Positions 1 through 8,657 of a DNA stretch of 8,787 bases are shown piece by piece. The stretch spans positions 1-8,787 of the forward strand of contig SLKF01000243.1 of NCBI GenBank assembly GCA_007134725.1. The letters are read 5' to 3'. Positions within the stretch are counted from its first letter, which is position 1. The number at the start of each line of letters is the position of its first letter. The notes below the pieces were generated by a model, which was given only the letters and a program-made list of their open reading frames with translations, searched no databases and was not told the origin of the DNA. The DNA comes from Clostridiales bacterium (GTDB lineage Bacteria; Bacillota; Clostridia; Peptostreptococcales; T1SED10-28). Made by a program: the position numbers and the translations under genes.

Positions 1-149
1 CGCTCGAGTAGTGTTGTAAAGCAATTGTTAAAACGGTTATTTTTTACGGGTTTCACACCCAAATTTGTTACAAATCTCCTCTCATGGGGTAAATATCCCT
101 TAAGCAGAAAAAAAGCTGTTGATAGAGTCTATTGGAGGAGGAGAAAATA

Positions 150-548
150 ATGAAAAAACGAAGTGTGTTGATGATACTGTTGGCCCTGCTGATGGTGCTG
201 GTATTGGTCGCTTGTGGCAACGGCAATGATAACGGAGACGACAACGGAGTTGAAAACGGTGTGGAGAACGGTGCGGAAGATCCCGCCGATGACGATGAAG
301 CCGCCGAAGAGGAATTGCCGGTGATGACTATGGCAGAAGTCGCCGAAAATGATGGATTGGACGGGGCCAGAGCCTACGTTGTAGTAGAGGGAATCGTATA
401 CGATGTTACGGACTCCCCGAGATGGGTGGATGGAAATCATAATGGAAATCAGGCAGGACAGGATTTAACCGATGAAATTCTGGGAGATTCCCCCCATGGC
501 AGAAGTGTACTGGATCGTTTTGAACCCATTGGAAGAATTGAAGAATAA
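150..548 (+). CDS. Exported lipoprotein with cytochrome b5-like heme-binding domain
   Basis: The 132-residue product starts with a lipoprotein signal peptide: MKKR, a hydrophobic run to about residue 18, then lipobox LVAC with the acylated cysteine at C22. A low-complexity acidic Asn/Gly/Asp/Glu linker (about 23-56) includes two VENG units. The rest (about 58-132) resembles the small bacterial cytochrome b5-like heme-binding domain: AYVVVEGIVYDVTDSPRW (75-92), then H97 in GNHNG and H116 in SPHG, which are the likely heme ligands. It should be anchored on the outer face of the membrane and may carry electrons or bind heme; its partner is unknown. ATG 150 is chosen because GGAGGAGG lies just upstream; an in-frame TTG at 132 would precede that site. 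The gene is monocistronic, with a terminator directly downstream. The fold call is from sequence resemblance only. Confidence 0.85.
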   Translation: MKKRSVLMILLALLMVLVLVACGNGNDNGDDNGVENGVENGAEDPADDDEAAEEELPVMTMAEVAENDGLDGARAYVVVEGIVYDVTDSPRWVDGNHNGNQAGQDLTDEILGDSPHGRSVLDRFEPIGRIEE

Positions 549-590: not shown

Positions 591-619
591 TTTACTTATA
601 AATATCCTTGTGATATTAT
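591..619 (+). promoter_or_regulatory. Candidate sigma-A promoter for the TRAP operon
   Basis: TTTACT (591-596) and TATTAT (614-619) are separated by 17 bp and match the -35 and -10 consensus at four and five of six bases. Transcription would begin near 626, upstream of the antiterminator and terminator hairpins, leaving a leader of roughly 150 bases before dctP. An alternative -10 (CATAAT, 648-653) has no good -35 and would cut into the first hairpin. Confidence 0.4.
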
Positions 620-651: not shown

Positions 652-685
652 ATAGTTATGACAGGAGAATAGGAGTGTCAACTAT
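652..685 (+). promoter_or_regulatory. Candidate antiterminator hairpin in the dctP leader, loop GAGAATAGGAG
   Basis: Bases 652-657 (ATAGTT) pair with 680-685 (AACTAT), and 660-663 (GACA) with 676-679 (TGTC), with a two-base bulge at 658-659. The 12-nt loop (664-675) contains GAGAATAGGAG. Bases 678-685 are also the 5' arm of the downstream terminator, so the two hairpins exclude each other, as in attenuation. The 11-base loop sequence recurs exactly at 5430-5440 before the glp terminator. The pairing is read directly; stabilisation of this form by GlpP is inference. Because the loop is AGGAG-rich it could also be a ribosome binding site for a leader peptide starting at GTG 675. Confidence 0.55.
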
Positions 686-736
686 ATTAACACACAGTGA
701 GCGAAGCTTCATGTGTTCTATAGTTGATGTTTTTTT
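678..736 (+). terminator. Leader terminator (attenuator) upstream of dctP
   Basis: TCAACTATA (678-686) pairs perfectly with TATAGTTGA (719-727). Inside it, AACACA (689-694) pairs with TGTGTT (712-717), and the tip folds around GC-GAA-GC (701-707). The stem is followed two bases later by seven Ts (730-736). It lies 42 bp before the dctP start, so it would stop transcription before the gene unless overridden. Its 5' arm is shared with the hairpin at 652-685, giving an on/off choice. Confidence 0.75.
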
Positions 737-778
737 GCGCAAATTGAGGATGTATTCAAATTATAAGGAGGAAGATTA

Positions 779-1834
779 ATGAAAAAAGTTCTGTTGATTT
801 TACTGGCATTGGCCATGGTTTTCAGTTTAGCAGCCTGTGGAAACGGTGCTGATGATTCCGAAGGGGGAGATTCTTCAAACGGAGAAGCCTCGGGCAATGA
901 GAACGTTGAAACAAAGGTTATTACCGTAAGTACCAAGTTTGTAGACGACGAGCAAACCGCAATTTCGCTTAAGAAAGTGGTAGAAGCGGTAAATGAAAGA
1001 AGCGACGGATCTTTAGAATTACAACTATTTACCAGTGGCGTACTGCCAATCGGTAAAGACGGTATGGAACAAATTGTTCAAGGTTCTGACTGGATCTTAG
1101 TTGAAGGGGTAAACTTCCTTGGAGACTATGTACCGGACTACAACGCCGTAACCGGACCTTTCCTTTACAGCACCTTTGATGAGTACTTTGCCATGATGCA
1201 AACCGATTTGGTTCAGAACTTAAACCGACAAATCGAAGAAGATCACGGTGTGAAGGTTCTTTCTTTGGACTGGGTATTCGGTTTCAGAAGCATGATGACC
1301 AACAAGCCGATCACATCTCCGGACGACATGAATGGAATGAATATCCGCGTTCCTACCAGTCAGTTATACACCTACACCATTGAAGCCATGGGAGGAAACC
1401 CGGTTTCCATGCCTTACCCGGACACCTATGCAGCGATTCAGCAAGGGGTAATTGACGGAGTGGAAGGTTCTATTATGACCTACTACGGAACCCAACAATA
1501 TGAAAACGTAAAAGAATACTCTTTAACCAACCACTTATTAGGAGTATCTGCAATATCCATCTCTACCGACCTTTGGGACACCTTAACGGAAGAAGAGCAA
1601 ACCATTATCGTAGAAGAGTTTGAAAAAGGTGCGGAAGACAACCTTACAGAAACCATTAAAGCAGAAGAAGAGTATGCAGATCTTCTTAAAGAAGAAGGGG
1701 TTACCTTCCACGAAGTAGACGCAGCAGCTTTCTTAGAAGCAGCAGAGCCCGTATATTCCAAGTTCCCACAGTGGACTCCGGGAATTTACGAAGAGATCTT
1801 GGAAGAACTGGAAAAAATCAAAGCAGAGCAGTAA
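779..1834 (+). CDS. dctP: TRAP transporter substrate-binding lipoprotein (DctP family)
   Basis: This is the extracytoplasmic receptor of a tripartite TRAP transporter; it binds solute outside the membrane and delivers it to DctQM. The 351-residue protein has a lipoprotein signal peptide with lipobox LAAC (C20), as expected in a Gram-positive, and a Ser/Gly/Glu/Asn linker to about 45. The DctP fold follows. R170 (GFRSMMTN) and R190 (NIRVP) are 20 residues apart, like R127 and R147 of the sialic acid receptor SiaP, where R147 binds the carboxylate. Further family signatures are EAMGGNPVSMPYPDTYAAIQ (202-221) and GVIDGVEG (223-230). These arginines favour an acidic ligand, but the actual substrate cannot be read from sequence. 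AAGGAGGA (765-772) fixes ATG 779. Its leader carries an attenuator. The symbol is the generic family name and does not imply dicarboxylate specificity. Confidence 0.95.
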   Translation: MKKVLLILLALAMVFSLAACGNGADDSEGGDSSNGEASGNENVETKVITVSTKFVDDEQTAISLKKVVEAVNERSDGSLELQLFTSGVLPIGKDGMEQIVQGSDWILVEGVNFLGDYVPDYNAVTGPFLYSTFDEYFAMMQTDLVQNLNRQIEEDHGVKVLSLDWVFGFRSMMTNKPITSPDDMNGMNIRVPTSQLYTYTIEAMGGNPVSMPYPDTYAAIQQGVIDGVEGSIMTYYGTQQYENVKEYSLTNHLLGVSAISISTDLWDTLTEEEQTIIVEEFEKGAEDNLTETIKAEEEYADLLKEEGVTFHEVDAAAFLEAAEPVYSKFPQWTPGIYEEILEELEKIKAEQ

Positions 1835-1858
1835 TAAGGCAGTAACAGAGCCGTAATT

Positions 1859-1897
1859 CATTATATAAAGACATTATATAAAGACATTATATTAAGA
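1859..1897 (+). repeat. Three tandem copies of a 13-bp unit
   Basis: CATTATATAAAGA occurs at 1859-1871 and 1872-1884, and once more at 1885-1897 with a single A-to-T change. The array sits in the 178-bp gap between dctP and dctQ, just before a long hairpin. It is AT-rich and contains TATATAA-like strings that could resemble a -10 box, but no matching -35 is evident. It may be simple slippage. Confidence 0.9.
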
Positions 1898-1909
1898 CAC
1901 AAAAACACA

Positions 1910-1954
1910 CTAATAGCATTCCTTTTACATAATCGGTAGAGGGAGTGCTATTAG
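1910..1954 (+). promoter_or_regulatory. Long intercistronic hairpin without a T-run, between dctP and dctQ
   Basis: Bases 1910-1922 (CTAATAGCATTCC) pair with 1942-1954 (GGAGTGCTATTAG) over 13 pairs with one U-G, around a 19-base loop. The bases that follow are AAAGTT, so it does not look like an intrinsic terminator on the + strand. Hairpins placed after a binding-protein gene and before membrane-subunit genes commonly act as mRNA stability or processing elements that keep the receptor message more abundant; that role here is inferred. Confidence 0.7.
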
Positions 1955-2012
1955 AAAGTTAAGCAGGGTCAGGATCGATGGAAAACGAATATTTATCGGA
2001 ATGGAGGATACC

Positions 2013-2540
2013 ATGAAGACGTATTTAAGAAAACTCGGTGTGAATTTTGAGCTGTATCTGGGATCGTTTTTTTTGTTGATTACATCGGTTATTGTAATTG
2101 TTAATGTATTTACCCGTTATTTTTTAAACTTTACATACCACTGGGCGGAAGAAATTGCCGTAGGGGCCTTTGTATGGGTAATCTTTTTAGGCTTTGCCAA
2201 TGCTTTTAAAACCAGATCTTTGATCGGGGTGGAGGTTTTGACCAATTTGGTTCCGGAAAAAGGACGACCGGTGCTGATTTTTATCACCTCGCTGGTGGTT
2301 TCCGTGCTTTCGGGTACCATGTTTTATCTTAGTTATTTATATGTCGCCGGATCAACGAAAATAACAGCAGCCCTGGAGCTGTCTTACAAATATATTTATA
2401 TATCCATGGTTTTTGCCTTTGGGCTGATCACCATTTATTCCCTGTACTTTTTGGTACAGAGTTTTCGAAAGATCTTTATGAAAAAAGATGTACGGATTGA
2501 TGTGGATCCGGAATTAGTGAAAGGGGAGGTGCGACGATAA
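2013..2540 (+). CDS. dctQ: TRAP transporter small membrane subunit (DctQ family)
   Basis: This small membrane subunit joins DctM to form the TRAP permease. The 175 residues show four membrane segments at about 16-36, 49-66, 86-109 and 124-146. The family signature NVFTRYFLN (31-39) is followed by HWAEE (43-47) at the start of the second helix. The tail is charged and cytoplasmic. I place the start at ATG 2013, since GGAGG (2003-2007) precedes it; an in-frame ATG at 2001 overlaps that site and lacks one of its own. The stop codon overlaps the dctM start (TAATG), so the two are translationally coupled. A 12-codon frame (ATG 1978 to TGA 2016) also overlaps this start but has only a weak ribosome site. 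Confidence 0.93.
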   Translation: MKTYLRKLGVNFELYLGSFFLLITSVIVIVNVFTRYFLNFTYHWAEEIAVGAFVWVIFLGFANAFKTRSLIGVEVLTNLVPEKGRPVLIFITSLVVSVLSGTMFYLSYLYVAGSTKITAALELSYKYIYISMVFAFGLITIYSLYFLVQSFRKIFMKKDVRIDVDPELVKGEVRR

Positions 2541-3826
2541 TGGGTTCTTTAACACCGGTAGCGGTTTTATTCATACTGTTTTTCTTAAACATCCCTGTTG
2601 CCTTCGCGCTGATGGGAGCATCCCTGTTTTACTTCGTATTTATCAACACCTCCATGCCTATGGAGATGATCATTCAACAGTTCGTCACTTCTGTGGAATC
2701 CTTTCCCTATTTGGCGGTGCCCTTCTTTATCATGGTAGGGTCCGTAATGAACTACTCGGGCATCAGTGGCGCCTTAATGGATTTCGCCGATGTTCTGGTA
2801 GGCCATACCAAAGGAGGACTGGCCCAGGTAAACGTACTGCTTAGTGCGTTGATGGGAGGAATTTCCGGGTCCGCCAATGCGGATGCGGCCATGCAGTCCA
2901 AGATTTTGGTACCGGAAATGGAGCGAAAGGGCTTTTCAAAGGCATTTTCCGCAGCGGTAACCGCAGGGTCCTCCGCCATCAGCCCGGTAATCCCTCCGGG
3001 AACAAATCTGATTTTATACGCACTGATTGCCGGTGTCCCCGTGGGGAATATGTTCCTTGCGGCTTATATGCCGGGAATTCTAATGGCCGTAGCCCTGATG
3101 ATCACGGTGCATATTATTGCGGTTAGACGAGACTACAAACCCAGTAGGGACCGGATGTCCAGCTTTTTAGAAATCCTAAAACAGTTCGGGAAATCCATCT
3201 GGGCATTATTTATTCCCTTCGGAATTATTATGGGAATGCGCTTCGGAATCTTTACGCCGACGGAGGCGGGAGGGATCGCCGTAGTATTTTCCATCATCGT
3301 AGGATTTATCGTATACAAACAGTTAAAGCCGGTTCATATTCCACTCATTTTAATGGATACGGTAAAGGGAACCGGTGGAGTCATGGCCATTATTGCCAGC
3401 GCCCGGGTTTTTGGGTACTACTTAACCTTAGAGCGAATTCCTCAAATGATTACGGAGAGTTTAGTGAACTTTACTGATAGTACCTTCGTTTTACTGATTG
3501 TCATCAATCTATTACTCTTATTCATCGGAATGTTTTTAGAGGGTGGGGCAGCACTGGTAATCCTGGCACCACTACTGGTTCCTGCAGTTGTGGCCTTTGG
3601 GGTGGATCCCATTCACTTTGGAATGATTTTTATCGTAAATATTATGATCGGTGGATTGACACCGCCCTTCGGGTCCATGATGTTTACCGTAAGTACCATC
3701 GTCAATGTAAAACTGGAGGATTTTATCAAGGAAATCTGGCCCTTTATCGGAGCCTTGGTTGCGGTACTACTATTGATTACCTACTCCGAGACGGTTGCCC
3801 TGTTTACACTGAATCTGTTTAAATAA
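2540..3826 (+). CDS. dctM: TRAP transporter large membrane subunit (DctM family)
   Basis: This is the large permease subunit, which carries the ion-coupled (usually Na+) transport path. The 428 residues are hydrophobic throughout, with about a dozen membrane segments, normal for the family. Signatures appear in order: PFFIMVGSVM (61-70), SGSANADAA (109-117), ISPVIPPG (147-154), FTPTEAGG (238-245) and GGLTPPFG (371-378). The two proline-rich motifs mark the inverted halves of the elevator-type transporter. The first is usually IPPS, and here reads IPPG. The start ATG shares its first base with the dctQ stop, with GGGGAGGTG just upstream. It ends 34 bp before the HAD phosphatase gene with no terminator between, so that gene is probably cotranscribed. 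Confidence 0.95.
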   Translation: MGSLTPVAVLFILFFLNIPVAFALMGASLFYFVFINTSMPMEMIIQQFVTSVESFPYLAVPFFIMVGSVMNYSGISGALMDFADVLVGHTKGGLAQVNVLLSALMGGISGSANADAAMQSKILVPEMERKGFSKAFSAAVTAGSSAISPVIPPGTNLILYALIAGVPVGNMFLAAYMPGILMAVALMITVHIIAVRRDYKPSRDRMSSFLEILKQFGKSIWALFIPFGIIMGMRFGIFTPTEAGGIAVVFSIIVGFIVYKQLKPVHIPLILMDTVKGTGGVMAIIASARVFGYYLTLERIPQMITESLVNFTDSTFVLLIVINLLLLFIGMFLEGGAALVILAPLLVPAVVAFGVDPIHFGMIFIVNIMIGGLTPPFGSMMFTVSTIVNVKLEDFIKEIWPFIGALVAVLLLITYSETVALFTLNLFK

Positions 3827-3860
3827 TCCCTGGACCATTGGCAAAAGGAGGACGCTTACT

Positions 3861-4649
3861 GTGACATTACAAGAGAAAAACGTATTTCTGTTGGATATGG
3901 ACGGAACCATTTATTTAGGAGACGAGTTGATTGAAGGGGCCAAGGATTTTTTAGCCGCCTTAAGGGAACGGGGAAAGCGCTACATCTTTCTGACCAACAA
4001 CTCCTCGAAAAATAAAGAAGTGTATGTGGAAAAACTGAATAAACTGGGCATCAAGGCCACAGAAGAGGAAGTCTTTACCTCCGGGGAAGCCACCACCCTC
4101 TATCTTAATAAGGAAAAACCGGGAGCTCGAGTGTATCTTTTGGGTACTCCCGCCTTGGAAAAGGAATTTACCGATGCAGGTTTTGTCATCGAAAAAGAGC
4201 GAAAAAAAGAAGTGGACTATGTGGTCCTGGGCTTTGATACCACCCTAACCTATGAAAAACTGTGGGGAGCCTGTGAGTACATTGCCAAGGACGTGGCCTA
4301 TATCGCCACCCATCCGGATTTTGTCTGTCCCTTGCCAAACAACGAGTTTATGCCCGATGCGGGAGCCATGGCGGCGCTGATTGAAGCCGCCACGGGAAAA
4401 ACTCCCAAGGTTATGGGAAAGCCCAATAAACAGGTAGTGGAAAGCATCGCCTTAAAATACGGCCTTGAAAAGAAGGATATGGCCATGGTGGGAGACCGGC
4501 TATATACCGATGTTGAGACGGGAAACAACGCAGGCATCGCCTCGGTAATCGTCTTCTCGGGAGAAACCAAGGAAAAAGACTATGAAATGAGCCCCATTCG
4601 GGCCACCTTCGCCTATCCTTCCGTAAAAGAGATGATTGAAGAGGTCTAA
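3861..4649 (+). CDS. HAD-superfamily IIA phosphatase (NagD/AraL/YutF-like)
   Basis: This is a soluble phosphohydrolase of 262 residues, typical for HAD subfamily IIA. All four catalytic motifs are present: DMDGT with nucleophile D12 and acid/base D14; TNN (45-47) within FLTNNSSK; K187 in GKPN; and GDRLYTD with D212 and D217 for Mg2+. The C2 cap lies between about 70 and 180 and includes HPDFVCPLPN (151-160) and PDAG. Relatives act on small phosphorylated metabolites, including nucleotide, sugar, glycolate and glycerol phosphates. Its place after a TRAP transporter and before glpP makes a G3P-type substrate attractive, but this is inference. The start is GTG 3861, 8 bp after AAGGAGGA (3845-3852). 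Confidence 0.9.
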   Translation: MTLQEKNVFLLDMDGTIYLGDELIEGAKDFLAALRERGKRYIFLTNNSSKNKEVYVEKLNKLGIKATEEEVFTSGEATTLYLNKEKPGARVYLLGTPALEKEFTDAGFVIEKERKKEVDYVVLGFDTTLTYEKLWGACEYIAKDVAYIATHPDFVCPLPNNEFMPDAGAMAALIEAATGKTPKVMGKPNKQVVESIALKYGLEKKDMAMVGDRLYTDVETGNNAGIASVIVFSGETKEKDYEMSPIRATFAYPSVKEMIEEV

Positions 4650-4680
4650 GTTAGCACCCCCCTTCTCTTGTTTTTTTTTA
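4638..4680 (+). terminator. Weak possible terminator after the HAD gene
   Basis: GAAGAGG (4638-4644), at the very end of the HAD gene, can pair with CCTTCTC (4661-4667), with one mismatch and one G-U. A T-rich run (4671-4679) follows. The stem is poor, so read-through into glpP is likely. Confidence 0.3.
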
Positions 4681-4695
4681 TAAAAAGACTATAAT
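4668..4695 (+). promoter_or_regulatory. Candidate glpP promoter
   Basis: A perfect -10 box TATAAT (4690-4695) lies 16 bp after TTGTTT (4668-4673), which matches the first half of the -35 consensus. Transcription would start near 4702, giving a leader of about 70 bases before glpP. Confidence 0.5.
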
Positions 4696-4713
4696 AGAAA
4701 CAACAGGTTCTTT

Positions 4714-4741
4714 AAATCTCAGTATTTGAGAATAGAGATTT
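4714..4741 (+). promoter_or_regulatory. Leader hairpin before glpP with a near copy of the loop motif
   Basis: AAATCTC (4714-4720) pairs with GAGATTT (4735-4741). Alternatively CTCA (4718-4721) pairs with TGAG (4727-4730), so two folds compete. The sequence GAGAATAGAG (4728-4737) is one base short of the GAGAATAGGAG found in the dctP and glp leaders. No T-run follows, so any control would not be by simple termination. It could be autoregulation or coincidence. Confidence 0.4.
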
Positions 4742-4772
4742 AGGGCATCGAAAGTCGTGAAGGGATGATCAA

Positions 4773-5339
4773 ATGACAGAGAACATCTTCAATCACATCG
4801 AAACCAATCCGGTGATCGCCGCGGTGCAAAATATCGAGGATGTGGACATCGCCGTAGGCTCCCAGGTGGGCATGATTATTTTGATGTGTGCCAACATCAT
4901 GAATGCCCGGGACATGGTGGATAAAATCCGAAAATCCGGGAAACTGGTAATCATTCATATGGATTTCTTAGAAGGCATCGGCCGGGACCAAAAAGCGGTA
5001 GAGTACGTGGCAACGGTGCTTGGCCCCGACGGGATCATCAGCACCCGCAACAGTCATATCAAGCACGCAAAGCAGTGTGGGATATTTGCGATCCAGCGTT
5101 TCTTTCTTATCGACAACAAATCCTATGAAACGGCCATATCCAGCGTCAAAAGCAATAAGCCGGATATGATTGAAATTATGCCCGGGGTGATGCCCACTAT
5201 CATCAAACGGATCACCAAAGATCTTATGATTCCCGTCATTGCGGGAGGACTGATCAGTACCAAACAGGACATCATGGAAGCCCTGCAGGCAGGAGCCATT
5301 GCCGCCTCCACCGGGAAAAAATATTTGTGGGAGTTATAA
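4773..5339 (+). CDS. glpP: Glycerol-3-phosphate-responsive antiterminator GlpP
   Basis: GlpP is a TIM-barrel RNA-binding regulator. In Bacillus subtilis it binds G3P and then leader RNA of glp genes, preventing termination. This 188-residue protein has the normal length and the family motifs: HMDFLEGIGRD (62-72), GIISTRN (87-93), IEIMPGVMP (133-141), IAGGLIST (156-163) and AGAIAASTGKKYLWEL (173-188). The last two are the likely phosphate-binding loops. The ATG at 4773 has AAGGG (4760-4764) upstream. It stands immediately before the GlpA-like gene, whose leader carries an intrinsic terminator, which fits its job. The TRAP operon leader has a related layout, so that may be a second target (inference). 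Its own leader is structured and may be autoregulated. Confidence 0.94.
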   Translation: MTENIFNHIETNPVIAAVQNIEDVDIAVGSQVGMIILMCANIMNARDMVDKIRKSGKLVIIHMDFLEGIGRDQKAVEYVATVLGPDGIISTRNSHIKHAKQCGIFAIQRFFLIDNKSYETAISSVKSNKPDMIEIMPGVMPTIIKRITKDLMIPVIAGGLISTKQDIMEALQAGAIAASTGKKYLWEL

Positions 5340-5426
5340 TCCCTAAAATTCGGGTATAAATATAAGTAGAAATGGAACTGCAGCAAAACACAATATATCT
5401 GCTGAAAAAGCAAAACTGAATAAAAA

Positions 5427-5444
5427 GGCGAGAATAGGAGAGCC
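5427..5444 (+). promoter_or_regulatory. Candidate antitermination site before the glp terminator, loop GAGAATAGGAG
   Basis: GAGAATAGGAG (5430-5440) is identical to 665-675 in the dctP leader. Here GGC (5427-5429) can pair with GCC (5442-5444), again giving a 12-nt loop. Bases 5443-5444 are also the first pairs of the terminator, so the stem would compete with it. Three pairs are too weak alone, which would suit a protein-stabilised site. Binding by GlpP is inferred from the adjacent gene and family knowledge. Confidence 0.5.
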
Positions 5445-5492
5445 GTGCACAGAATCTATGATAACCATAGGTTTTTGTTGTACGGTTTTTTT
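5443..5492 (+). terminator. Leader terminator upstream of the GlpA-like gene
   Basis: CCGTGCA (5443-5449) pairs with TGTACGG (5479-5485) with one G-U. After a one-base bulge the stem continues through 5450-5454, and CTATG (5456-5460) pairs with CATAG (5466-5470) around an AUAAC loop. Seven Ts (5486-5492) follow. It lies 32 bp before the start codon and 103 bp after the glpP stop. I find no convincing promoter in 5340-5440, so transcripts may come through from glpP. This is the expected type of target for a GlpP antiterminator. Confidence 0.85.
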
Positions 5493-5524: not shown

Positions 5525-6967
5525 ATGTATGATATAACCGTAATCGGAGCCGGGATCACCGGAACCTTTATTGCCAGGGAGCTGTCCCGGTACGACCTGA
5601 ATATTTTACTGCTGGATAAGGAAAACGACGTAGCCAACGGGACCACCAAGGCCAACAGTGCCATCGTTCATGCGGGCTATGACGCAGCGGAGGGGACCCT
5701 GAAGGCAAGGTTCAACGTAAGGGGAAATAAAATGTACGACGAAATCTGCAGGGACTTGGATGTGCCCTTTAAGCGGGTGGGATCTTTGGTTACCGCCTTT
5801 AACGAGGAGGAGATGGAAACTATTCAGTGTCTATACCAGCGGGGGATTACCAACGGCGTACCGGATATGAAGATTCTGGACAAAGAAGAAGTCCTTGCAA
5901 TGGAAGGGAACTTAAAAGAAGACATTAAAGGGGCCCTTTATGCAAAAACCGGAGGGATTGTAGGCCCTTGGGAGCTGGCCATTGCCCTGGCGGAAAACGC
6001 CGTGGAAAACGGTGTGGAGCTTCGACTGAACAGTCCCGTAACCGCCATAAAAAAAGTGGAGAAGGGCTACCGGGTAAGCGCAGGAGAAAAAACCTATAAA
6101 ACGAAGGTGGTCATCAACTGTGCCGGAGTCTATGGGGACCAAATCGATCAGATGATCAATGAAAAGACCTTTGAAATACTTCCCAATCGGGGAGAGTACA
6201 ATCTCTTTGATAAATCCGTAGGGGATATGGTAAAAACCGTGGTATTCGGTTGTCCTTCGGCGGCAGGGAAAGGCACCGTGATTTTGCCCACGGTTCATGG
6301 CAACTTACTACTGGGACCTACCGCGGACCCCATTGATAATAAAGAGGATACCAGAACCACTTTTGATGGATTGACTTCAATTAACGATCATGCCAAGGCA
6401 ACCTTAAAACAGATCGGATTTCAGGATGTGATCACTTCCTTTAGCGGCATCCGGGCCAAGGTGGCCAGGAAGGACTTTATCATTGAAAAAGCCCGGGGAC
6501 GGGAGGATTTTATCAATGTGGCGGGAATTGATTCCCCGGGACTGACCGCGGCACCGGCTATTGCAGAGTACGTGGTGGAAATGGTACAAGCATCGGCGAC
6601 GTCGCTGGAGATGCCCCTTAGGGAAAAGGAAAACTTTAATCCTCGACGAACCCCGTCGATCCACTTTATGGATTTAAGTACCAAAGAGCAGGAAAAACTG
6701 ATTGCAAAAGATGCCCGTTTCGGACGGATCATCTGTCGATGTGAGAACATCACCGAAGGGGAAATTGTGGACGTCATTAAAAGAAAAGCGGGAGCCACCA
6801 CCTTAGACGGCGTAAAACGACGGGCACGACCGGGCTCGGGACGTTGTCAGGGAGGATTCTGTGCACCGAGGGTAATGGAAATTATCGCCCGGGAGCTGGA
6901 CGTGGATATGAAGGATGTATTAAAGGACGGAAAAGGGTCCTACATTCTAACGGAGAAAACCAAATAA
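5525..6967 (+). CDS. GlpA-like FAD-dependent oxidoreductase with C-terminal [2Fe-2S] domain
   Basis: This is probably the catalytic subunit of an anaerobic G3P dehydrogenase-type complex, oxidising G3P to dihydroxyacetone phosphate. The N-terminal FAD (DAO) fold has GAGITG (8-13), D31 ending the second strand, and NSAIVHAGYD (44-53), shared with GlpA and 2-hydroxyglutarate oxidases. AGIDSPGLT (333-341) is the second flavin-binding stretch. A BFD-like [2Fe-2S] domain follows at about 400-460, with C404, C406, C441 and C446 as ligands. At 480 residues it is shorter than Escherichia coli GlpA (about 540). AAGGAGGA (5511-5518) fixes the ATG. A leader terminator lies upstream and the partner oxidoreductase 23 bp downstream. 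L-2-hydroxyglutarate or another hydroxyacid is the alternative substrate; the adjacent glpP favours G3P. Confidence 0.9.
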   Translation: MYDITVIGAGITGTFIARELSRYDLNILLLDKENDVANGTTKANSAIVHAGYDAAEGTLKARFNVRGNKMYDEICRDLDVPFKRVGSLVTAFNEEEMETIQCLYQRGITNGVPDMKILDKEEVLAMEGNLKEDIKGALYAKTGGIVGPWELAIALAENAVENGVELRLNSPVTAIKKVEKGYRVSAGEKTYKTKVVINCAGVYGDQIDQMINEKTFEILPNRGEYNLFDKSVGDMVKTVVFGCPSAAGKGTVILPTVHGNLLLGPTADPIDNKEDTRTTFDGLTSINDHAKATLKQIGFQDVITSFSGIRAKVARKDFIIEKARGREDFINVAGIDSPGLTAAPAIAEYVVEMVQASATSLEMPLREKENFNPRRTPSIHFMDLSTKEQEKLIAKDARFGRIICRCENITEGEIVDVIKRKAGATTLDGVKRRARPGSGRCQGGFCAPRVMEIIARELDVDMKDVLKDGKGSYILTEKTK

Positions 6968-6990: not shown

Positions 6991-8259
6991 TTGTTAAACT
7001 ATGAGATTGTGGTCATCGGCGGAGGTCCTGCGGGACTTGCGGCAGCCATTGAAGCGAAAAAGAACGGCGCGAAAGAAATCCTGGTCTTAGAGCGGGACTT
7101 GGAACTGGGAGGGATTCTCCAGCAGTGTATCCATAACGGATTCGGTCTTCATGTATTCAAAGAGGAGCTGACGGGCCCGGAATATGCGGAGCGTTTTATT
7201 CAGGAACTGAAGGATATGGGCATTGAATACAAACTGGATACCATGGTACTGGAGGTATCCGATGATAAAAAGGTGAGGGCCATGAACCGGGAGGAAGGGA
7301 TCTTAAACATCCGGGCAAAAGCCGTAATTCTGGCCATGGGATGTCGGGAGCGAACCCGTGGGGCCATTCGAATTCCCGGAACCCGGCCCGCAGGGGTAAT
7401 GACCGCCGGTACCGCCCAACGATTTGTCAACATGGAGGGGTATATGACCGGGAAACGGGTATTGATTCTTGGTTCCGGAGATATCGGACTCATTATGGCA
7501 AGAAGACTGACCTTAGAAGGTGCCGAGGTTCTGGGAGTCGCGGAGCTGATGCCCTTTTCCGGAGGCCTGAACCGAAACATCGTTCAGTGTCTGGAGGATT
7601 TTGATATCCCCCTTTATCTACAGCATACGGTCATTGATATCGAAGGGAAGGACCGGGTAGAAGCGGTAACCATCGCAAAAGTGGATGAGCGGTATAAGCC
7701 CATTAAAGGGACAGAAAAACGCTTTGACTGTGATACCTTACTCTTATCCGTGGGACTGATTCCGGAGAATGAATTGTCGAAATCCGCAGGGATTACCTTG
7801 GACAAGATCACCGCAGGTCCCAGAGTAAACGAAGCCATGGAGACCAGTGTGGAAGGGGTCTTCGCCTGTGGCAACGTGGTCCACGTCCATGATTTGGTGG
7901 ACTGGGTAACGGAGGAGAGTCGAAAAGCAGGAAGAAATGCGGCTAGGTACGTATCCGGGGCCTTGAAAAATAAGGGAAACAAGATTGCCGTACAGGGAAT
8001 CAACGGGGTTCGCTACGTGGTACCCCAGGAAATTCGACCGGAAAATCTGACGGGAAAAACGGAATTTATGATGCGGGTGGACGCCGTATATCAAAACGTA
8101 ACACTGGTAGCGAAAATCGGAGAGGAAGTTCTCAGAAGCGTAAAAAGGCGACATGTGGCTCCGGGAGAGATGGAAAACCTGGTGCTGGACCTTGGAAATA
8201 TCAATCCGAACAATATGGAAAACCTGACCATTGAATTGGTTCAAGAGGAGGGTGCCTGA
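6991..8259 (+). CDS. FAD/NAD(P)-binding oxidoreductase, partner subunit of the GlpA-like enzyme
   Basis: This 422-residue pyridine-nucleotide-disulfide-oxidoreductase-like flavoprotein has an FAD motif GGGPAG (10-15), the conserved block ILAMGCRERTRGAIRIPGTR (113-132), a second nucleotide fold GSGDIG (161-166), and ACGN (292-295) near the flavin. There is no CXXC redox pair, only isolated cysteines such as C46 and C118, so it is not a disulfide reductase. It probably passes electrons from the GlpA-like flavin to NAD(P) or a carrier, in the place E. coli GlpB fills. The start is TTG 6991, 7 bp after AGGAGG (6978-6983). A longer frame from 6844 would overlap the previous gene by 124 bp and adds residues unlike the family. 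It overlaps the next gene by one base. Confidence 0.9.
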   Translation: MLNYEIVVIGGGPAGLAAAIEAKKNGAKEILVLERDLELGGILQQCIHNGFGLHVFKEELTGPEYAERFIQELKDMGIEYKLDTMVLEVSDDKKVRAMNREEGILNIRAKAVILAMGCRERTRGAIRIPGTRPAGVMTAGTAQRFVNMEGYMTGKRVLILGSGDIGLIMARRLTLEGAEVLGVAELMPFSGGLNRNIVQCLEDFDIPLYLQHTVIDIEGKDRVEAVTIAKVDERYKPIKGTEKRFDCDTLLLSVGLIPENELSKSAGITLDKITAGPRVNEAMETSVEGVFACGNVVHVHDLVDWVTEESRKAGRNAARYVSGALKNKGNKIAVQGINGVRYVVPQEIRPENLTGKTEFMMRVDAVYQNVTLVAKIGEEVLRSVKRRHVAPGEMENLVLDLGNINPNNMENLTIELVQEEGA

Positions 8260-8657
8260 TGGAAAAAAAAGAAATGATTTGTATCGTATGTCCCGTGGGG
8301 TGTCATATGGAGGTTGTCAAGAACGGAAAGTCGGAAGAGGGCTACGAAGTAAGCGGCAATCAGTGCCTACGGGGAAAGGTCTACGGAATTAAAGAGATGA
8401 GCAATCCCACAAGAGTGCTGACCACCACGGTAAAAATCACCGAGGGAAAACTGCCCAGACTGCCGGTGAGTACCAAAGGAGCCATTCCCAAGGGCATGAT
8501 GATGGAAGCGATGAAGGTCATCAATCAGGTGGAAGTCCAAGCCCCGGTAACGGTGGGAAAAGTAGTCATTAAAAACCTGCTAAACACCGGTGTGGATGTG
8601 GTAGCGACCCGAAGTATGGAAGCGGATTCCCGGTCTCAATCCCAAAAAGTCAGTTGA
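8259..8657 (+). CDS. DUF1667 small protein with Fe-S-like cysteine motif
   Basis: This 132-residue protein matches the DUF1667 family, regularly found after the two oxidoreductases in clostridial and Thermotogales glycerol clusters. Cysteines C8, C11, C15 and C36 give C-x2-C-x3-C-x20-C within ICIVCPVGC and NQCLRGK. This resembles the N-terminal [4Fe-4S] site of molybdopterin oxidoreductases, although no molybdopterin domain is present. An electron-transfer role in a three-subunit complex with the two upstream flavoproteins is therefore likely but inferred. The middle (about 48-80) has NPTRVLTTTVKITEGKLPRL, and the C-terminus is polar. Its ATG overlaps the preceding stop (TGATG), indicating translational coupling. 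No terminator is evident downstream, so further genes probably follow. Confidence 0.88.
   Translation: MEKKEMICIVCPVGCHMEVVKNGKSEEGYEVSGNQCLRGKVYGIKEMSNPTRVLTTTVKITEGKLPRLPVSTKGAIPKGMMMEAMKVINQVEVQAPVTVGKVVIKNLLNTGVDVVATRSMEADSRSQSQKVS

Follow-up and report, generated by a model that had tools for sequence, protein, structure and literature searches.

Two operon leaders in an 8,787-nucleotide (nt) stretch of Clostridiales bacterium DNA (contig SLKF01000243.1; referred to here as the window) carry the same small predicted hairpin element. One leader precedes an operon for a tripartite ATP-independent periplasmic (TRAP) transporter, a HAD-family phosphatase-like protein, and the antiterminator-family protein GlpP, and the other precedes a glpABC-like operon for oxidation of glycerol-3-phosphate (G3P). 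The elements share a stem strand with predicted terminators of G3P/glycerol-type operons, are conserved among relatives, co-occur with glpP, and stand before G3P and glycerol genes. On these grounds, and by analogy with Bacillus subtilis, both leaders are very probably antiterminators that GlpP binds and that control the TRAP-HAD-glpP and glpABC-like operons. That GlpP binds, that G3P is required, and that the effect is antitermination are assumptions modeled on the B. subtilis system, in which GlpP with G3P acts on leader terminators of glpD, glpFK, and glpTQ, and in which the 5' untranslated region behind each of three GlpP-activated promoters contains a site for GlpP binding and a terminator (excerpted text of PMC9604022). 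In the mechanism that we propose, the predicted hairpin has a conserved GAGAnnnGGAG-type loop and a short stem, and the 3' strand of that stem doubles as part of the predicted terminator. G3P-loaded GlpP would bind and hold this hairpin, and transcription would then run through into both operons. With glpP itself behind the first leader, the arrangement would amount to positive feedback: G3P, once imported, would raise its importer, its sensor GlpP, and the enzymes that oxidize it.

The initial annotation of the window had proposed a shared control element linking a TRAP transporter to G3P oxidation, and comparison with other genomes supports this proposal through conservation, covariation, co-occurrence with glpP, and gene context. 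Its 11-base motif GAGAATAGGAG is present exactly at 665-675 and 5430-5440. Both copies sit in predicted hairpin loops of 12 nt, and in each hairpin the 3' strand of the stem overlaps with a predicted seven-T terminator. The gene between the copies is indeed a glpP gene (PF04309) (Table 1). Folding either leader without its downstream part gives the box hairpin, whereas folding with the downstream part gives the terminator instead. Taken alone, the box hairpins do not exceed shuffled sequence in stability (z -0.17 and -0.34). The AGGAG of the loop also pairs in the window folds with the T-run at the terminator base, so a protein that holds the loop may interfere with the terminator twice.

Identity of the 11-mer was rejected as evidence. 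The initial annotation had put the number of 11-mer pairs expected by chance at about nine, which proved far too low: the window has 62 same-strand pairs. Nor is the motif enriched in the window with up to 2 mismatches (4 found versus 2.88 expected) or genome-wide with up to 1 mismatch (26 versus 28 for the reversed pattern), and a third exact genomic copy (G000:C72, L033), just before the start of an open reading frame (ORF), looks like chance. Identity alone is thus weightless, and the weight of the argument rests on conservation in relatives.

The comparison started from a loose motif search of glpP neighborhoods in relatives, and in many of these the loop was accompanied by a stem and a terminator next to glpP or glpA. 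Two samples were used: an order sample of 98 genomes, almost all of them from the window's order but outside its family, of which 51 encode a PF04309 protein over the cut-off, and a class-wide sample of 291 genomes, 98 of them with glpP, which includes the window's genome. The covariance model R1 was seeded with 21 of 32 collected elements, chosen mainly for one spacing; the seeds include the window's TRAP element, and 13 order-sample genomes are seed genomes. R1 matches at E<1e-5 were found in 29 of the 51 order-sample genomes with glpP versus 1 of the 47 without (p 5e-10), and this association persisted when the seed genomes were left out (16/38 versus 1/47, p 3e-6). Fourteen class-sample genomes matched at E<=1e-5, namely 12 of 98 with glpP versus 2 of 193 without (p 6e-5), and at E<1e-6 all 10 matching genomes had glpP.

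The genes behind the element point the same way. At E<=0.05, R1 gave 82 matches in 74 sources. Gene context was examined for 78, and before curation glp, GDPD, or TRAP genes were among the genes behind 70 of these; there were none such behind L074, L076, L078, L079, L083, L100, and L101, and L077 had no ORF. Alignment A4, fitted by the model to the stem, holds 70 rows (67 distinct) from 45 of the 74 sources; its omissions include L061, L073, L074, L076, L078, L079, L083, L084, L096, and L101, among which L084 and L096 are good glpA matches and L073 is the box of genome G063. Once a duplicate place (L041/L102) had been dropped, 69 curated elements remained, and 67 of them precede glpA (36), glpP (11), dctP (7), glpF (6), MFS (2), GDPD (2), glpK (1), DUF1667 (1), or mgtC (1) genes. 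The six glpF calls were made by length, with two checked against Pfam, and both MFS calls were checked. The remaining two elements stand, respectively, before a contig end with no intervening ORF and before a PucR-type regulator gene in a genome without glpP.

The stem itself is conserved as a structure. Standard pairs fill 99.0% of stem cells among the 67 distinct elements of the stem-fitted alignment A4, and the middle pair is G-C in 54, A-U in 9, G-U in 2, and another combination in 2. The paired percentage, the number of double-change cells, and the covariation score were reached by none of 500 shuffles, and two counts of pair types were reached by 20 and 23 of 500, while sliding the partner by 1 to 3 columns gave at most 44.4% pairing. 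When the sequence from element to T-run was folded, the 3' arm became part of the downstream hairpin in 65 of the 70 rows, versus 20 to 34 with a shuffled tail; this count uses the densest, last T-run, and an earlier rule that took T-runs inside hairpins gave 37/70. Folded alone, the element forms its hairpin in 61 of 70 rows. The compensatory stem changes that the initial annotation suggested looking for are found across the clostridial element family but not inside the TRAP subset.

The putative recognition sequence, judged on loop and T-run, is common to the window's leaders and to glp leaders of Bacillales. We searched the best 80 of 557 listed glpP loci from a GlpP alignment search, ranked by similarity to Listeria GlpP (B. 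subtilis is not among them), with a plain loop pattern plus T-run and no stem requirement. The loop GGAGAnnnGGAG with a T-run occurs in 53 of the 80 loci, with 78 copies on the glpP strand, 1 on the other strand, and 1 in the reversed sequence. Seventy-five of the 78 precede glp genes (glpP 23, MIP-family glpF 9, glpK 1, and glpD-like 42, the last encoding proteins 60.8-100% identical to a Priestia megaterium protein with DAO and DAO_C domains), and 3 precede other ORFs; exact GAGAATAGGAG lies at 8611 in the Priestia megaterium locus L170. R1 gave only 10 weak matches at E<=1 on the Bacillales loci, probably because the spacing differs: by eye, the Bacillales stem lies about 2 bases 3' of the loop, versus 0 to 1 base in the clostridial element. 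Unselected stem pairing in Bacillales was 64.7% of cells, versus a shuffled mean of 48.5% (maximum, 58.2%) and 32.8-48.7% in slid registers, which is supportive evidence but not strong.

Nine TRAP operons in four families carry the element. The dctP leaders of G000 to G003 align over promoter, hairpin, and terminator with the loop frame GGAGAnnnGGAG kept. Conservation extends, for the TRAP leader, to G001 to G003 and three further families and, for the glp element, through the order and into Bacillales. Among ten aligned leaders, the loop varies at its three middle bases only. The leader is kept in G002 even though the dctP behind it is only 41-45% identical, and a GDPD gene lies in the same operon. 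Elements of the GACA/TGTC type precede TRAP operons in G068, in G070 (twice), and in two genomes from a different order of the class, G224 and G175. R1 matched TRAP leaders outside its seeds with per-genome E values of 6.7e-10 in G003, 1.4e-12 in G068, 2.0e-8 and 5.0e-8 in G070, 9.4e-13 in G224, and 1.6e-11 in G175; G068 and G070 had supplied other elements, not their TRAP leaders, to the seeds. The window's TRAP leader scores 42.6 bits, but its element is itself a seed. G175 repeats the layout of the window (box, TRAP, HAD, glpP, box, glpABC-like operon), with a dctP that reads as two pieces.

Starting instead from the transporter, the window's DctP matches 10 proteins in 9 of the 98 relatives at E<=1e-55, and 7 of the 10 dctP genes have a box directly before their operon. 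As for the other three, in G011 a glpABC-like operon whose box has a shorter loop precedes the TRAP genes, the G022 contig ends 278 nt upstream of TRAP, and G050 has no R1 match. The contig of G288, from the class sample, ends before the leader position. Five more distant DctP loci (30-34% identity) gave no R1 match at E<=1. All nine DctP genomes have glpP, as do G175, G224, and G288. A second covariance model, R2, was built from 34 elements, none of them a TRAP leader and none from the window's family. It gave exactly two matches in the window at E<=1, the leader of the glp operon (7.5e-8) and that of the TRAP operon (0.082), and in ten further loci it detected one G070 TRAP leader (8.3e-5) and the G068 TRAP leader (0.038).

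Several observations weigh against control of both operons by GlpP. R2 reaches the window's TRAP leader at no better than E 0.082 in 8.8 kb, and at E<=1 it did not detect the TRAP leaders of L034, L035, and L063 or the second of the two in L075. A G-C to A-U stem change costs score; the R2 test alone is weak for TRAP, and the claim is carried by the family-wide alignment and by recurrence before TRAP operons. Covariation in the outer TRAP stem is not significant, and one G070 TRAP element has TGAC, a broken stem pair. Under the stricter filters, no R1 match was found in 22 of the 51 order-sample glpP genomes (E<1e-5) or in 86 of the 98 class-sample ones (E<=1e-5), so R1 may be limited to one form of the element, or those genomes may have other forms or none. 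R1 is also not fully specific, as L074 (E 2.7e-8), L076, L078, L079, L083, and L101 precede unrelated genes; G013 counts among the 29 matching genomes only through L078, and it also has a weaker, true-looking match before a likely glpF (L048). Matches occur without glpP in G063, G183, and G227, with a weaker one in G062 before a PucR-type gene, and gene context in the class sample covers G000, G007, G175, and G224 only. No box was found in the eight Listeria glpP loci, and the TRAP locus of G050 (L046) has no R1 match. Near the divergent glpP of G050 (32% identical), GAGACTTGAG-like or AGAGTGCAGAG-like strings stand before T-run hairpins at L046 9220-9330 and 13800-13860, and by eye these are possibly a diverged box.

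A different reading of the same leaders is that the hairpin is a small riboswitch sensing G3P or another metabolite itself, without GlpP. Such a riboswitch would show the same loop conservation, covariation in the stem, and overlap with a terminator, and one box occurs in G063, in which glpP was not detected. This we hold to be improbable. The element co-occurs with glpP in two samples, and the G063 box (L073 5826-5864) precedes short ORFs that match glpB and DUF1667 and appear to be remnants of a glp operon. Some 20 conserved nucleotides with a 3- to 5-bp stem are small for a metabolite pocket, and Rfam 15 yielded no family in the window at gathering scores and none in either leader at E<=1. 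Binding by another RNA-binding regulator, such as a BglG/LicT-type or ANTAR-type antiterminator, is conceivable in that such proteins too use terminator-overlapping hairpins. In BglG/LicT-type ribonucleic antiterminator (RAT) leaders, a protein-stabilized hairpin overlaps the terminator with its 3' strand, and the window element is proposed to work in the same way with a different protein family. Among the nine window proteins, however, GlpP is the sole member of an RNA-regulator family in Pfam or NCBIfam scans, and none is a BglG-family antiterminator, a family for which the rest of the genome was not searched. The element also tracks glpP across genomes and precedes glp genes in Bacillales too, which leaves another regulator a somewhat poorer candidate than the riboswitch.

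Two further explanations are less likely still. Control mainly of mRNA stability or processing has a precedent in B. subtilis, where the glpD leader and GlpP are reported to act both in antitermination and on the stability of the mRNA (Glatz et al. 1996). Stability control alone would not need the 3' arm to be common to the predicted terminator, as it is in 65 of 70 rows, and we consider it very unlikely to be the main function. Accidental repetition of a Shine-Dalgarno-like purine string in two leaders would fit a purine-rich motif whose identity is not unusual and whose third genomic copy looks accidental, but it is contradicted by the conservation, the 78 to 1 strand bias, the covariation, and the gene context, and we give it next to no weight.

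The GlpP antitermination mechanism is already known, and the antitermination by GlpP proposed for the window resembles the B. subtilis system in pairing a GlpP-family protein with leader terminators before G3P or glycerol genes; the GAGAnnnGGAG loop before glpP, glpF, and glpD-like genes was seen in other Bacillales. Unlike that system, the window would place TRAP, HAD, and glpP genes, and a glpABC-like operon without glpF, under such control. The literature searched, which did not extend to the older B. subtilis leader papers, held no description of the RNA element across Clostridia and Bacillales or of a TRAP transporter under it; PMC9604022 refers in its excerpted text to a drawn B. subtilis GlpP site, so the sequence of that site may already be in print.

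Among solved structures, the window's DctP is closest to 4pfb (507 bits, residues 35-349) and the G002 DctP to 4n6k (436 bits). FN1258 (4PFB) contains glycerol phosphate, and the 4N6K protein, there named Desal_0342, contains diglycerol phosphate (PMC11668362, excerpted), and TRAP ligands include glycerol-3-phosphate and diglycerol-phosphate (PMC5812351, excerpted). By its closeness to FN1258, the window's TRAP system likely imports glycerol-3-phosphate. It and the G002 system differ from these two known systems in that their genes lie behind a predicted GlpP-box leader. A glycerol kinase-family gene is present in all five genomes of the genus, with no box within ~1.5 kb in the four checked, and none of the five has an MIP facilitator; an unboxed glycerol kinase and the lack of MIP would fit uptake of G3P rather than of glycerol.

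Table 1. Predicted features of the window
Feature	Position	Strand	Basis or remarks
Cytochrome-b5-like ORF	132-548		Lipoprotein-like; cytochrome-b5-like domain weak; upstream of TRAP leader
Promoter-like site, TRAP leader	591..619	+	TTTACT, 17 nt, TATTAT, TG before -10; most of stretch conserved in G001-G003
Predicted GlpP box/antiterminator, TRAP leader	652..685	+	Arms 652-656 and 659-663 with 676-685; loop 664-675
TRAP leader loop GGAGAATAGGAG, 12 nt	664..675	+	Contains the 11-base motif (665-675); inner stem GACA 660-663 / TGTC 676-679
Predicted intrinsic terminator, TRAP leader	676..736	+	Seven Ts 730-736; 5' arm includes 3' arm of box
dctP, TRAP solute-binding protein	779..1834	+	Family model; nearest solved structure 4pfb (FN1258 with glycerol phosphate)
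dctQ, TRAP small permease	2013..2540	+	Start codon assumed; position, length, homologues in relatives
dctM, TRAP large permease	2540..3826	+	TIGR00786
HAD-IIA family phosphatase-like protein	3861..4649	+	Family-model match
glpP, G3P-responsive antiterminator family	4773..5339	+	PF04309, E 7.7e-64; solved relatives 3kts, 1vkf
Predicted GlpP box/antiterminator, glp leader	5427..5444	+	GGC 5427-5429, loop GAGAATAGGAGA 5430-5441 (12 nt), GCC 5442-5444
Predicted intrinsic terminator, glp leader	5442..5492	+	Seven Ts 5486-5492; z -5.06
glpA-like G3P dehydrogenase/oxidase	5525..6967	+	DAO and BFD [2Fe-2S]
glpB-like pyridine nucleotide-disulphide oxidoreductase	6991..8259	+	
DUF1667 protein	8259..8657	+	Often third gene of glpABC-like operon type

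The TRAP trio is complete in the window, with DctP and DctM assigned by family models and DctQ, for which an NCBIfam scan gave no match, by position and homologues. Three NCBIfam G3P models match the glpA-like protein, each below its curated cut-off. Promoter-like sites such as the one of the TRAP leader are no commoner in the window than in shuffles. The cytochrome-b5-like ORF has a terminator-like site of its own at 557-588. A 10-nt near-copy of the motif, GAGAATAGAG, lies at 4728-4737, just 5' of glpP, between AAATCTC and GAGATTT (4722-4743). No terminator is visible 3' of it, and it is missing from the HAD-glpP gap of G002; the boxes before terminators in G011 have the same shorter loop.

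In other genomes, an MgtC-family gene lies inside or beside glp/TRAP operons in several families (PF02308 in L022, the others by similarity), at L022 620-1345 (minus strand), L035 5022-5693, L036 5536-6207, L044 7889-8470, L046 13881-14462, L075 6962-7684 and 12862-13299, and L222 1-513, and in G070 it has its own box 5' of it. Pyruvate kinase or dihydroxyacetone kinase genes stand behind boxed glpP at L102 531-3191, L040 1662-4198, and L080 1340-3178, so the regulon may reach lower glycolysis. The TRAP-glp intergenic gaps of G002 (L035 11900-12180 and 9250-9480) are filled with short tandem-like repeats of the gcaaaatagt and gaactgcaggaagg types.

More broadly, we think it likely that a Firmicutes-wide family of GlpP-recognition RNAs controls, besides glycerol use, a dedicated TRAP importer of glycerol-3-phosphate or glycerophosphodiesters, whose cargo would induce the importer, GlpP, and the oxidation enzymes at the RNA level, and that G002 kept this switch while exchanging the transporter for one with a different specificity. 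GlpP antitermination is a classic case of its kind, and with a searchable consensus for the RNA that GlpP targets, members of the regulon could be identified straight from genome sequences. TRAP transporters, which are often annotated only as dicarboxylate carriers, would gain a testable substrate, and one TRAP transporter would be placed under RNA-level control by its likely cargo.

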